Part shown: piece by piece, positions 32,410 to 40,145 of the stretch
Layout: each line of letters opens with the position of its first letter
How positions within the stretch are numbered: the first letter of the stretch is position 1
Origin: Candidatus Aenigmatarchaeota archaeon
GTDB taxonomy: Archaea; Aenigmatarchaeota; Aenigmatarchaeia; GW2011-AR5; JACRAC01
NCBI GenBank assembly: GCA_016187395.1
Contig: JACPJV010000006.1
Span: forward strand, 1 to 62,344
Length of the DNA: 62,344 nucleotides
Direction: 5' to 3'
Position numbers and translations under genes: made by a program
The notes under the pieces: generated by a model
Databases searched by the model: none
Seen by the model: the letters and a program-made list of their open reading frames with translations, nothing else
What the model was told of the DNA's origin: nothing

Positions 32410-33540
32410 ATGTCCACAACCACGCGGGAAGAAAGAATTGCCAGGGTGAAGAGCCTGATTGAGAGAGGGATGAATGCAGAAGAAATGCATGCACAAACCG
32501 GTATCCCTATAAAGACGCTGTATCGATTTAGAATAGACGGCGCACCTCTGCCCAGGAAACGTCATTTCAGGGCGAAAAGAAAGCCAGGGATAGATATTTT
32601 ATTGGATCATTGGGAAGAGCTTCGTCCAGAAGATCTTTCGCTGCACTCGCTTGCCGAGGCAGGAGGATACCAGACTCCGCAAGGTGCCTGGGATTATCTT
32701 TCGAGAACAGTCCGGCTTGGTTTATGGAATGACAGAAAAGAGCGCCTGGAAGCAGCACGGAAAGAGGCAAGGCTGAAGCTTCTGCGGGTGCTTACGAACC
32801 CTGGAGAAAAAATTGCAGCCTTGCTTACAGGGAAAGTCTTAAGAGACGCTGAAGGACAAGGGGCGCTGCATAGAAAGGCCATAGAATATCTTATGAACAG
32901 AAAAAGAATCTCCAGAAACGTCCCTCCGGAAAACGTGCTTAGATTCGTGGAGGCTTACGAGGAGGCGGAAAGAAACGGGGAAAAACCAGGCATTCAGCCG
33001 CTTGCTGAAAGAAGCGGGATCCGTTCTTATGGAACAGGGCGGTTCATTTTAAGAAGGATTGGCAGAGAGCCTTTGAACGGATATGGCATTCCAGGAGAAA
33101 AAGCACAGGCGCTTGAAAGGGCATATGATCTTCTTGATTTTAGCTCGCAGGATTTAGAATACTATACTGGAATTTCAAGGAATTCTATTCTGTATTTCTT
33201 CAGAAAGATCAGAGAAAAGACTGGCAAAAGAAGGAAATCAAGAAAATCTATAACACAGTTCGTCGGGGTTTCTGGAAATACCCTTTGTTACAGGCATGCG
33301 AGCGAAATATACAGGGCATGGGACGCAGGGTTCAGAAGATATGACGAGATATCAGAGCTTGCTGGAAGGGACGTGAGGGTTGTCAGGTTTGCCGTAGAAA
33401 ACAGAAGAAAGGGATTGGACATAGAAAGCCTGATCGTAAATGCCCTCGGTGTGCTTTATCCTGGCCGAGGCACAGACAAACCATACCCAGGAAGCTGGCT
33501 GTCTCAAACAGGCCTGCAGAAACCCATCTCTTCCAGATAA
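32410..33540 (+). CDS. Multi-HTH DNA-binding protein
   Basis: 376 aa, basic. At least three helix-turn-helix-like units: residues ~8-36 ('LIERGMNAEEMHAQTGIPIK'), ~250-280 ('FSSQDLEYYTGISRNSILYF') and ~320-350 ('YDEISELAGRDVRVVRFAVE'). A fourth is possible around 195-215 ('PLAERSGIRSYGTGRFILRR'). No catalytic motif is seen. TTAAATAG lies ~24 bp upstream of the ATG. The last 37 bp overlap the convergent DnaA-domain-IV-like gene, which is unusually long for this window. Confidence 0.65.
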   Translation: MSTTTREERIARVKSLIERGMNAEEMHAQTGIPIKTLYRFRIDGAPLPRKRHFRAKRKPGIDILLDHWEELRPEDLSLHSLAEAGGYQTPQGAWDYLSRTVRLGLWNDRKERLEAARKEARLKLLRVLTNPGEKIAALLTGKVLRDAEGQGALHRKAIEYLMNRKRISRNVPPENVLRFVEAYEEAERNGEKPGIQPLAERSGIRSYGTGRFILRRIGREPLNGYGIPGEKAQALERAYDLLDFSSQDLEYYTGISRNSILYFFRKIREKTGKRRKSRKSITQFVGVSGNTLCYRHASEIYRAWDAGFRRYDEISELAGRDVRVVRFAVENRRKGLDIESLIVNALGVLYPGRGTDKPYPGSWLSQTGLQKPISSR

Positions 33541-33818
33541 GAGAGAACAGACCTGTAGGAATGCATGACTGTTGAATGGTCCCTCAAAAGCATGCGTCCT
33601 ATATTAGGATAGGACACTTCAAATCTTTCTCTCAATACATAAATTGCAACAGCTCTGGCTACTACGTGTCCGCTTCTTTGCGCTCTGCCTCTGAGGTCTG
33701 GTACAGCTATGCCTGTCCTGCGGCTTACAGCCGGAAGGACGCCTTCCAGAGTCATCCCGGCAGTTCCCATCAATTCAGCGATCATCCTTTCTGATCCGGC
33801 CCACTTATCACTGTTCAT
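33504..33818 (-). CDS. DnaA domain IV-like DNA-binding protein
   Basis: 104 aa from the ATG preceded by AAGGTGA. Residues ~52-92 ('HVVARAVAIYVLRERFEVSY' then 'PNIGRMLLRDHSTVMHSYRS') closely follow the DnaA C-terminal signature: IG-x-x-F-x-x-RDHTTV-x-H in E. coli becomes IGRMLLRDHSTVMH with one residue fewer. The N-terminal half is a short helical region. There is no AAA+ domain. It is the third gene of the SRP54 operon, overlapping the zinc-ribbon gene by 4 bp (ATGA). A bacterial-type dsDNA-binding fold in an archaeon is unexpected; plasmid, virus or transposon origin is possible (inference). Confidence 0.72.
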   Translation of the reverse strand: MNSDKWAGSERMIAELMGTAGMTLEGVLPAVSRRTGIAVPDLRGRAQRSGHVVARAVAIYVLRERFEVSYPNIGRMLLRDHSTVMHSYRSVLSYLEEMGFCRPV

Positions 33819-33991
33819 TCTTTCACCTTCTTTTTCATTCTGCGTTTCGCTTTTCTTTTCGCATCTTCTTCCATAATAACAGGCCCGCGATAGCCGCAGT
33901 TGTTGCATAGGTAGAATATTCCTAAGACACCTCCCATCCATATGCCTATAGGGCCTTTCCTGCATTTTGGGCAGATTTTGTCGGCAGGCAT
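33815..33991 (-). CDS. Zinc-ribbon basic small protein, 58 aa
   Basis: Too short for the ORF track. 'MPADKICPKCRKGPIGIWMG' and 'FYLCNNCGYRGPVIM' give two CxxC pairs, then a basic tail 'KRKAKRRMKKKVKE'. It starts 2 bp after the SRP54 stop, and its TGA overlaps the ATG of the DnaA-IV-like gene. Likely a nucleic-acid or ribosome-associated zinc ribbon. Confidence 0.75.
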   Translation of the reverse strand: MPADKICPKCRKGPIGIWMGGVLGIFYLCNNCGYRGPVIMEEDAKRKAKRRMKKKVKE

Positions 33992-33993
33992 TT

Positions 33994-35319
33994 CTACAAC
34001 CCCAGTCCTTTCATCCCGCCGAACTGGCGCAGGAGCTTTGCCATATTGCCTCTCTTCATATTTGCAGGGGAAAACTGCTTCATCATTTTCTTTATTTTGT
34101 TGTAATTGCCCAGAAGCTCGCGCACGTCCTGCTCGCTTGTTCCGGAGCCCTTGGCTATCCTGGATATTCTTGGTGTGTTTATTATATCCGGGCTCTGCCT
34201 CTCATGCCTCGTCATAGAATTCATTATGTGTTTCCACTTGCGCATTTTCTCTTCCTGCACAGAAAGAAGGTCCTTTGGCACCTTGCCCCCGAGTCCTATC
34301 ATGTCTACGATCTGCCCTAATGGTCCCATGCTCTGCATTGATTCCATCTGCTTTATGAAATCCTCCAGGTCAAAATCTGCTTTCGCAATTTTTTCCGTAA
34401 GCTCGGGTTTTACAGCTGCCTTTGCTTTTTCGAGTAATGTCTCCAAATCAGGCATTCCGACAAGCCTTGCAACGAAGCGCTTGCTGTCGTATATTTCCAG
34501 CTTATCAGGCTGCTCGCCGACGGTCACAAAGATGACCTTTGCCCCTGTCTCGTAGCATGCTGTGAGCGCGCCTCCTCCTTTTGCTGTTGCATCCAGCTTT
34601 GTTACTATGACGTCAGTGATTCCCAGAGCCTTTTGGAACGCGGAAGATTGCTCCTTTGCAGCCTGTCCTATATCGGCAGGAATAACAAGTATGCGCTCGT
34701 CAGGCTTTGCTTCTGATGCCACGGATTTTATTTCCTTTACCAGATTTTCATCGAGGGCATCGCGACCAGAGGAATCGAATATGATAACGTCTGTTTTTGT
34801 TTTTTGCAGGGCATTCTTTGCGATCTTTGCTGCATTTATTTCGCCCTTCTCGCCGTAGAACTGCGCACCTATCTGCTGCGACAGCTGGTGCAGCTGCTCA
34901 TACGCGGCAGGCCTGACCGTGTCGCAGCATACCAATCCCACGGAAAACCCTTTTTTCTGGTAAAATCTCGCAAGCTTTGCTGCTGTAGTAGTCTTTCCGG
35001 ATCCAAAAAGCCCGACAAGAAGCATCTTCTTGGGCTTTATTTTTATTTCCGGCTTTTCGCCGCCCATTATTGATGCTAATTCATCGTAAACAGTCTTCAC
35101 TACCAATTCCCTGCGAGTCATTCCAGCAGGAAGTTTGCCAAGAGATTTCTTTCTTATATTCTCTGCAAGCTCTTCTGCGAGATGCACGTTCACGTCGCCT
35201 CCAACCAGCGCGCGCTTTATCTCGCCTACTAATTCACTGACAGCTTTCTCATCAACGCTGCCTATATTTGATATCTTCTGCAGCGCGCTGCGCAGTTTTT
35301 TTGAAAGTGATTCCAGCAT
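33994..35319 (-). CDS. srp54: Signal recognition particle GTPase SRP54 (Ffh)
   Basis: 441 aa, normal length. N domain, then G domain with 'LVGLFGSGKTTTAAKLARFY' (P-loop), 'DTVRPAAYEQLHQL' (G2/IBD), 'IIFDSSGRDALDENLV' (G3, here DSSGR rather than DTAGR), 'TKLDATAKGGGAL' (TKLD) and the Met-rich M domain 'FIKQMESMQSMGPLGQIVDM', which binds SRP RNA and signal peptides. The two substitutions in G3 are unusual but keep Asp and Gly. It heads an operon with a zinc-ribbon protein and a DnaA-IV-like protein. Confidence 0.95.
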   Translation of the reverse strand: MLESLSKKLRSALQKISNIGSVDEKAVSELVGEIKRALVGGDVNVHLAEELAENIRKKSLGKLPAGMTRRELVVKTVYDELASIMGGEKPEIKIKPKKMLLVGLFGSGKTTTAAKLARFYQKKGFSVGLVCCDTVRPAAYEQLHQLSQQIGAQFYGEKGEINAAKIAKNALQKTKTDVIIFDSSGRDALDENLVKEIKSVASEAKPDERILVIPADIGQAAKEQSSAFQKALGITDVIVTKLDATAKGGGALTACYETGAKVIFVTVGEQPDKLEIYDSKRFVARLVGMPDLETLLEKAKAAVKPELTEKIAKADFDLEDFIKQMESMQSMGPLGQIVDMIGLGGKVPKDLLSVQEEKMRKWKHIMNSMTRHERQSPDIINTPRISRIAKGSGTSEQDVRELLGNYNKIKKMMKQFSPANMKRGNMAKLLRQFGGMKGLGL

Positions 35320-38089: not shown

Positions 38090-39448
38090 ATGCCAGGTCT
38101 GGAAGGATATTCGAAGAAAGTGCAAAAGCTGCTTGGCAAAAAAGGCATACGCATAGGCGACCGCGTTTCTGCGGGCGGCTACGAAGGCATGCTGATGCCG
38201 CGCATAGGCGGCGATGCAAATGCACTGGTCATAAAGCTGGACAACGGATATAATATAGGCGTGCGGGCGGAGAATGCCAGAAAGCTGGCTGGAAAAGCAA
38301 AAATGCAGGAAAGGGAGTGGAAGCTGAAATCTCAAAGGGATCCTGCAAAGCCGACTATTGCAATACTTCACACAGGCGGCACGATTGCGTCGAAGCTTGA
38401 TTACAGGACGGGCGCTGTGGAGCCTGCTATCACTGATGATGAATTGCTGGCGATGTATCCTGAACTCATGGAGCTTGCGAACGTACGCTCGCGCATCGTG
38501 TTCCAGATATTCTCAGAGGACCTGGAACCTGCTCACTGGGAAACGATTGCAAAGAAAGCCTACGATGAGATAGCAGAGGAAGGATGCGACGGCGTTATTA
38601 TCACGCACGGCACTGACACGATGTACTATACTGCTTCTGCCCTGAGCTTTGCGCTTCAAAACCTGCCTGTCCCTGTTTTGCTTGTCGCAAGCCAGCGCTC
38701 TTCTGACAGGCCGAGCAGCGACGCAGGCGTAAATCTTCTGAGCGCCGCGCTCTTCATAGCAAAGGGCGATTATGCTGGCGTGGGCATATGCATGCACTCT
38801 TCGCCATCTGATGACAAATGCTGGATTTTAGAGGCGAACAGGTGCAGAAAAATGCACACGTCACGAAGAGATGCTTATCGGCCAATAAATTCGAAGCCTC
38901 TGGCGGAGATAGACTGGAATGCACGGTCGATAAATTTCCTGAAGGAAGATTACAGAAGGAGAGACCAAAAAAGAATACTGCAGCTAAAGGCGAAATTCTC
39001 AGACAAGGTAGGTCTGCTTAAGATCTATCCGGGCTTTCCTCCGGACCTAATCGATTTTTTCGCAAAGAAATACCAAGGATTGCTCATAGAAGGCTATGCG
39101 TTCGGCCAGATGCCTGTGAATGCAGTGGATTCGAAAACAGATCATCATAAGATTCTCCTCGGAAAAATTGCAGCTCTTGCAAAGAATATCCCCATTGTCG
39201 TGGCTTCGCAGGTGCCTTATGGAATAGCCAATATGAACGTCTACTCGACGAGCCGCGACCTCACGAAGGCAGGGGTTATAGAGGCAAGGATGCCTGCCTA
39301 TTCTGCTTACGTGAAATTGTGCTGGCTGCTTGGAAACGGCAAAAGGCTGGATGATATCAGGAAAAAGATCAATGAGGATATTGCTGGAGAAGTTGTGACG
39401 CGACAAGAGCTTGATGAATTTCCGGACGAGGGGCTGGAGAAGGGATGA
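38090..39448 (+). CDS. gatD: Glu-tRNA(Gln) amidotransferase subunit D
   Basis: 452 aa. The N-terminal ~85 residues are the GatD-specific beta domain ('IGDRVSAGGYEGMLMPRIGG'). The L-asparaginase-like domain has 'IAILHTGGTIASKLDYRTGA' (first catalytic Thr) and 'GVIITHGTDTMYYTASAL' (second Thr/Asp). It releases ammonia from asparagine or glutamine for GatE, which amidates Glu on tRNA-Gln. In many archaea gatD and gatE are adjacent; here a VapBC module and an orphan gene lie between them. Confidence 0.93.
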   Translation: MPGLEGYSKKVQKLLGKKGIRIGDRVSAGGYEGMLMPRIGGDANALVIKLDNGYNIGVRAENARKLAGKAKMQEREWKLKSQRDPAKPTIAILHTGGTIASKLDYRTGAVEPAITDDELLAMYPELMELANVRSRIVFQIFSEDLEPAHWETIAKKAYDEIAEEGCDGVIITHGTDTMYYTASALSFALQNLPVPVLLVASQRSSDRPSSDAGVNLLSAALFIAKGDYAGVGICMHSSPSDDKCWILEANRCRKMHTSRRDAYRPINSKPLAEIDWNARSINFLKEDYRRRDQKRILQLKAKFSDKVGLLKIYPGFPPDLIDFFAKKYQGLLIEGYAFGQMPVNAVDSKTDHHKILLGKIAALAKNIPIVVASQVPYGIANMNVYSTSRDLTKAGVIEARMPAYSAYVKLCWLLGNGKRLDDIRKKINEDIAGEVVTRQELDEFPDEGLEKG

Positions 39449-39519
39449 ACATTGGGAAAATTTCCTTGTTTTTCCCAAAATCTTTAAATATTTTGGGAAA
39501 CAATACTTCTTGTGATTTA

Positions 39520-39765
39520 ATGGAAATTCTCACGATAGACAGGGCTGGAAAGATGTATTTTCCAAAGGCTGTAAGGCATAAAATCAAGGAAAGGAATTAT
39601 GTAGCTGTTATACTGCCAGACGGCACTATAATGCTGCACAAGTTCAGGAGAATCAGGGACCCTAAAAAAGCGCTAAAGGAATTCCAAAAGCTGCCAGAGG
39701 TTACCAAGACGATAAAACAGATAAAGAAGGAGATTTACGACGAGGCTCTGAAGGGTGTGAAATGA
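39520..39765 (+). CDS. vapB: AbrB-type (SpoVT-AbrB) antitoxin, VapB family
   Basis: 81 aa from 'MEILTIDRAGKMYFPKAVRH'; the swapped-hairpin AbrB core ('GKMYFPKAVRHKIKERNYVA') is clear, followed by a basic helix for toxin binding. TTAAATA lies ~33 bp upstream; the longer track start is inside the promoter. It overlaps the PIN toxin gene by 4 bp. Confidence 0.8.
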   Translation: MEILTIDRAGKMYFPKAVRHKIKERNYVAVILPDGTIMLHKFRRIRDPKKALKEFQKLPEVTKTIKQIKKEIYDEALKGVK

Positions 39766-40145
39766 TGTACGCTGATCTGGACTTTTTCCTTGCGTTGCTG
39801 AAGAAGGAGGACTGGCTCAAAGAAAAAGCTGAAGAAATCTACAGGAAGCATCATAGGGAGATATGGACTTCCACCATCACTCTGCAGGAAATAATGCTCT
39901 ACGCATCCAGGGAACGCCTGAACCTATCCGAATTCATTGAGAGGATGCTGTCCCTCACAGAAATACGGGAAATCAATATCACAGTGGAAATGTGCCTTGC
40001 TGTCACCGACCTGATCAGCAGATTTAACATGACTCCCTTTGATGCCTTTCATGCTATGATATGCGAAGGCGATGAAATAATCAGTTCTGACAATTCTTAC
40101 GACAGAATAGGACTGAGACGAGTAAGACTGGAAGGCGACCATTGA
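39762..40145 (+). CDS. vapC: PIN-domain toxin VapC
   Basis: 127 aa. 'MYADLDFFLALLKKEDWLKE' provides the first PIN Asp, 'STITLQEIMLYASRE' the conserved Glu, and 'MTPFDAFHAMICEGDEIISS' plus 'DNSYDRIGL' the later acidic residues. PIN toxins are RNases. Starts at ATGATG overlapping the antitoxin stop. Inserted between gatD and gatE. Confidence 0.82.
   Translation: MMYADLDFFLALLKKEDWLKEKAEEIYRKHHREIWTSTITLQEIMLYASRERLNLSEFIERMLSLTEIREINITVEMCLAVTDLISRFNMTPFDAFHAMICEGDEIISSDNSYDRIGLRRVRLEGDH

Follow-up and report, generated by a model that had tools for sequence, protein, structure and literature searches.

Why does an archaeal genome carry, close to the gene for its signal recognition particle GTPase, a short gene for the DNA-binding part of DnaA, the starter of chromosome copying in bacteria that, to our knowledge, archaea do not use? 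The question was raised by a window of 62,344 nucleotides from a Candidatus Aenigmatarchaeota archaeon (assembly GCA_016187395.1, contig JACPJV010000006.1, positions 1 to 62,344), in which the gene at 33504..33818 on the minus strand encodes a protein of 104 aa (P0001). An earlier note, made from the sequence alone, had described this protein as a stand-alone DnaA domain IV-like module in an SRP54 operon, and had proposed that it is either a repurposed regulator or a mobile-element relic fixed in a core operon.

Arrangement of the gene and its neighbors

The gene is indeed located downstream of SRP54 (33994..35319, minus strand), which encodes the archaeal signal recognition particle GTPase, but its immediate neighbor is a gene for a 58-aa zinc-ribbon protein (CPKC...CNNC; 33815..33991, minus strand), with SRP54 one gene further away and 2 bases upstream of the zinc-ribbon gene. 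No Pfam family reached its cut-off with the zinc-ribbon protein. The stop codon of the zinc-ribbon gene overlaps the start codon of the DnaA domain IV gene (ATGA) and the sequence GGTGA is present just 5′ of the ATG, which together make this start credible. A longer start, giving a protein of 153 aa, was rejected because it merely runs out of frame through the zinc-ribbon gene. The GC content of the gene is 0.489, similar to that of the adjoining genes.

At its 3′ end, the gene overlaps by 37 bases with a convergent gene (32410..33540, plus strand) encoding a 376-aa orphan protein, which contains several HTH-like segments, matches no Pfam family at cut-off and is missing from every other locus at hand. 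This orphan is regarded here simply as a neighbor of the DnaA domain IV gene. Elsewhere in the window (39445-40145, plus strand), a small overlapping gene pair resembles, by eye, an AbrB-type antitoxin and a PIN-domain toxin.

Domain identity of the 104-aa protein

In a profile search, residues 27-91 of P0001 (33546..33740, minus strand) matched positions 4-69 of the 69 positions of PF08299 (Bac_DnaA_C) with 59.5 bits (E 3.3e-16), against a curated gathering cut-off of 31.5 bits. The helix-turn-helix DNA-reading segment IGRMLLRDHSTVMHSYRS (residues 73-90; 33549..33602, minus strand), which the earlier note had recognized as the DnaA signature, lies inside this match, and the model described below has helices at residues 70-77 and 81-98. 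NCBIfam DnaA models matched the same stretch with their full-length cut-offs unmet, as expected since the domain is isolated. The top PDB sequence match was M. tuberculosis DnaA-DBD (3pvp, E 1.4e-8), and E. coli DnaA (1J1V) was matched with an E value of 0.006.

A model predicted by AlphaFold2 from a 7-row alignment had a mean pLDDT of 89.2 and a pTM of 0.82. When this model was searched against the PDB using Foldseek, DnaA structures took the first 11 places, with deviations of 1.4 Å from M. tuberculosis DnaA domain IV (3pvp) and 1.6 Å from E. coli 1J1V, the structure that had been suggested for comparison; the Pfam profile and the fold search both point to DnaA, so the domain call of the earlier note withstood the refuting check that it had named. 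The best match among viral models was a tailed-phage “DnaA C-terminal” protein (1.0 Å over 78 columns, TM 0.92 by target). The AAA+ ATPase domain III of the DnaA replication initiator is absent from the 104-aa protein. As judged from profile matches and the modeled fold, the product of 33504-33818 is a stand-alone DnaA domain IV module.

Location on an archaeal chromosome

The contig containing the window is 127 kb long and also encodes ThrRS with an archaeal editing domain, aRF1, GatD and GatE. Among named SRP54 genes, those of Aenigmatarchaeota and of archaeon GW2011_AR5 are closest to the one in the window. The bin has a completeness of 79.6% and a contamination of 0.43%. The gene sits on an archaeal chromosome, and contamination is not a credible explanation for it. 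The genome contains one Orc1/Cdc6 (347.7 bits), located on contig C3 and not on the contig of the DnaA domain IV gene, and a profile search of the genome found no DnaA ATPase domain above cut-off, which agrees with the earlier view of an archaeal host that initiates with Orc1/Cdc6.

Distribution in relatives and other DPANN archaea

The idea of a conserved SRP54 operon had to be abandoned. Neither the DnaA domain IV gene nor the zinc-ribbon gene was present at any of the SRP54 loci of relatives (0/26), the 3′ side of SRP54 differs among these 26 relatives, and the order SRP54, zinc ribbon, DnaA domain IV was found solely in the window genome, so that fixation of the gene in a core operon is not supported. 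The DnaA domain IV gene is also absent from G001, a genome of the same family; conservation is therefore no guide to function, and the arrival of the gene may be recent, even neutral.

In profile searches, PF08299 was detected in 3 of 156 genomes of the host phylum, in 7 of 371 Nanoarchaeota (5 of these over the cut-off), and in 1 of 295 Micrarchaeota, where the match is below the cut-off and has stops inside. Several candidates were not accepted as archaeal members. In G314, the match belongs to a complete bacterial DnaA (L130, G314:C43), a probable bacterial contamination of an archaeal bin. The match in G119 lies on a short contig of 3.7 kb (L005, G119:C12), on which an HNH-like plus DnaA_C protein is encoded beside a KAP-like NTPase, again probable bacterial contamination. 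G341 was represented by short, phage-like contigs, and G598 contained internal stops. Weak matches of the A3 profile in Nanoarchaeota, at positions about 55-94, resembled other HTH families in the cases inspected. Proteins of ~195-211 aa with tandem sigma-70 region-4-like HTH segments (“RDDRTIW”) occur in G193 and G304 (L160 and L162) and in other Nanoarchaeota; they are weakly DnaA domain IV-like, and comparable weak matches are found in many Nanoarchaeota genomes.

After leaving out G314, G119, G341 and the weak matches, four other loci with free DnaA domain IV on archaeal contigs were obtained. G002 encodes a 298-aa protein (P0002) with diphthamide synthase on the same contig, G195 a 185-aa protein with aTrm56 close by, and G255 a 118-aa protein on a 576-kb contig together with thermosome, proteasome and FttA. 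In the nanoarchaeotal G478, two adjoining genes (L140, G478:C1, 9332-10697) encode proteins of 152 aa and 283 aa with one and two DnaA domain IV-like copies, respectively, and ribosomal S9 and L13 are close by; this gene pair also adjoins a thioredoxin-reductase-like gene. Pfam finds one copy per protein in G478, that of the 152-aa protein scoring 26.6 bits, below the cut-off. A profile built without the G478 sequences gave 29-46 bits for the three copies, so the multiple copies in G478 are independently supported. Copies are single in Aenigmatarchaeota. A second copy in P0002, suspected by eye, was rejected with profile scores of -0.6 to -0.9 bits.

The neighbors of the DnaA domain IV gene are different in each genome. 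Leave-one-out archaeal profiles gave a mixed outcome (53.6 bits versus 59.5 by Pfam for P0001, and 58.9 versus 46.5 for P0002), and a single archaeal family is therefore not proven. According to these predictions, free-standing DnaA domain IV proteins are sporadic in DPANN archaea. A bolder proposal is that DPANN archaea repeatedly domesticated the ATPase-free DnaA box-binding domain into an archaeal regulator family, possibly touching replication control beside Orc1/Cdc6; we regard this as speculative and rather unlikely.

DNA-reading residues and DnaA boxes

According to work cited in PMC9638019, T435 of E. coli DnaA contacts bases and R399 contacts the minor groove. In our alignment, E. coli D433, H434, T435 and T436 correspond to D80, H81, S82 and T83 of P0001, each either identical or conservatively exchanged, while R407, K415 and R399 correspond to R55, R63 and Q47; the numbering of E. 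coli residues other than T435 and R399 was derived from the T435/R399 anchor of PMC9638019. The loop register at Q47/R48 is uncertain, possibly one residue off, and R48 adjoins Q47, so that the apparent loss of the minor-groove arginine (Q47 for R399) is itself uncertain. In GafA, the T435 position is occupied by Ser and the R399 position by Glu (PMC9638019), and these two changed positions align with S82 and, within the same uncertainty of register, Q47 of P0001.

DnaA-box-like clusters, which the earlier note had suggested searching for, were not found. The genome contains 133 sites of TTWTNCACA and 38 of the reversed pattern, an apparent enrichment that was rejected because it is accounted for by Markov expectations and by the density in relatives: contig C6 has 18 sites versus 14.5-15.7 expected (order-2 and order-3 Markov models), and the density is 0.142 per kb versus 0.104-0.131 per kb in relatives without the gene. 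No cluster was present among the first 100 of the 133 sites listed in this 42-contig draft. Thus, within the limits of such a draft, the DnaA domain IV protein has no bacterial-style origin behind it.

Known counterparts

Free DnaA domain IV proteins are of a kind already known from phages and alphaproteobacteria; the host domain of life is what is unexpected. GafY/HdaB (CCNA_01111) of Caulobacter crescentus is a stand-alone DnaA domain IV homolog for which an effect on replication was reported first; it was later shown to switch on transcription of the cluster for gene transfer agents and is reported as an activator of this kind, not as an oriC factor (PMC9632790, PMC11150451). Compared by description, P0001 shares with it the combination of a stand-alone DnaA domain IV and a different initiator protein in the cell, whereas GafY/HdaB is bacterial, works with GafZ and IHF, and is tied to gene transfer agents; neither gafZ nor gene transfer agent genes were noticed among the neighboring genes examined around the archaeal gene. 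The N-terminal DNA-binding domain of GafA from Rhodobacter capsulatus is likewise a DnaA-like domain serving transcription (PMC9638019), but it is fused to a sigma-like C-terminal region, while the archaeal protein stops after the domain.

Tailed-phage proteins annotated as “Chromosomal replication initiator, DnaA C-terminal” (e.g. A0A6J5KNY4) are free DnaA domain IV proteins of about 80-150 aa and give the best structural match; they differ in their location on phage genomes, and their identity with P0001 is only 28%. P0001 shares the fold and the HTH motif RDH[ST]TV with the domain IV structures 1J1V (E. coli) and 3PVP (M. tuberculosis), but it is without the ATPase and N-terminal domains and has S82 for T435 and, apparently, Q47 for R399.

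DnaA domain IV was also observed in other viral sequences. A viral contig (L010, 3961-4227) encodes an 88-aa stand-alone DnaA domain IV protein with 66.3 bits, directly upstream of a possible replication gene whose product has 282 aa. Unannotated phage records from human faeces of about 4-8 kb (MT837889, MT839073, MT837552 and others) also contain DnaA domain IV-like stretches.

Proposed role and alternative explanations

We favor the explanation that P0001 is a horizontally acquired DnaA domain IV, of bacterial or phage source, that now probably serves as a small sequence-specific dsDNA-binding regulator. Its HTH recognition helix (D80, H81, S82, T83) would read a short DNA sequence through the major groove, and the protein may influence transcription, with its own operon or a few promoters as possible targets, rather than replication initiation, in a mode presumably like that of GafY/HdaB. 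Since Q47 appears to replace the minor-groove arginine (E. coli R399), the protein would probably recognize a sequence other than a classical DnaA box. The regulator reading is supported by the PF08299 score, the predicted DnaA fold, the presence of Orc1/Cdc6, the lack of a DnaA ATPase above cut-off and of box enrichment or clustering, the occurrence of free DnaA domain IV amid archaeal genes in other DPANN genomes, and the precedents of GafY/HdaB and GafA. The “repurposed regulator” of the earlier note would be the best reading.

The other half of that proposal, namely that an integrated virus or plasmid left behind a phage-type stand-alone DnaA domain IV gene that survived by chance after SRP54 with no host role, is less likely, though it deserves consideration. 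Stand-alone DnaA domain IV proteins are common among tailed-phage predicted structures, where P0001 finds its closest structural kind, and one is present in the viral contig L010; moreover, the gene has a patchy spread (3/156 genomes of the phylum) and is missing at all relatives’ SRP54 loci. However, no virus, transposon or other mobile-element gene was recognized among the neighbors examined, the frame is intact, a ribosome-binding site and an overlap with the preceding gene are present as in a functioning operon, and the GC content of 0.489 matches that of the neighbors.

A role in chromosome replication, in which the protein binds origin DNA and aids or restrains Orc1/Cdc6, appears improbable. 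It would correspond to the ancestral role of the domain, and the major-groove residues D80, H81 and T83 are largely retained; yet Orc1/Cdc6 is encoded on another contig (C3), the DnaA boxes show no cluster among the sites listed and no enrichment, and most relatives are without the gene. A free DnaA domain IV can bind a specific site, but alone it cannot open DNA or load helicase, which is the task of other DnaA domains, and no DnaA ATPase domain is available for opening DNA.

We consider it very unlikely that P0001 is not derived from DnaA and is instead an archaeal sigma-70 region-4/TrpR-like HTH protein with a motif acquired by convergence. The proteins at L160 and L162, of a type common in Nanoarchaeota, bear similar “RDDRTIW” segments and give weak archaeal-profile matches, but proteins of this type match Sigma70_r4_2 or HTH_23 and reach at best 13.5 bits with DnaA_C, whereas P0001 matches DnaA_C across the whole domain with 59.5 bits and the fold search ranks DnaA first. 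Bacterial contamination does occur in such metagenome bins, as in G314 and G119, but it can practically be dismissed here because ThrRS, aRF1, GatD/GatE and SRP54 of archaeal type surround the gene on its 127-kb contig, unless this contig is chimeric, and the bin figure is 0.43%.

In a limited search of the open-access literature, which is weak evidence of absence, we found no published description of an archaeal DnaA domain IV. Because DnaA is not used by archaea, the presence of its intact domain IV on an archaeal chromosome shows that such a DNA-binding module moves by itself from one domain of life to another, just as it moves between bacteria and phages. Whether it has retained or lost the reading of DnaA boxes could bear on how archaea with tiny genomes, many of which depend on partners, come to employ components of bacterial origin.
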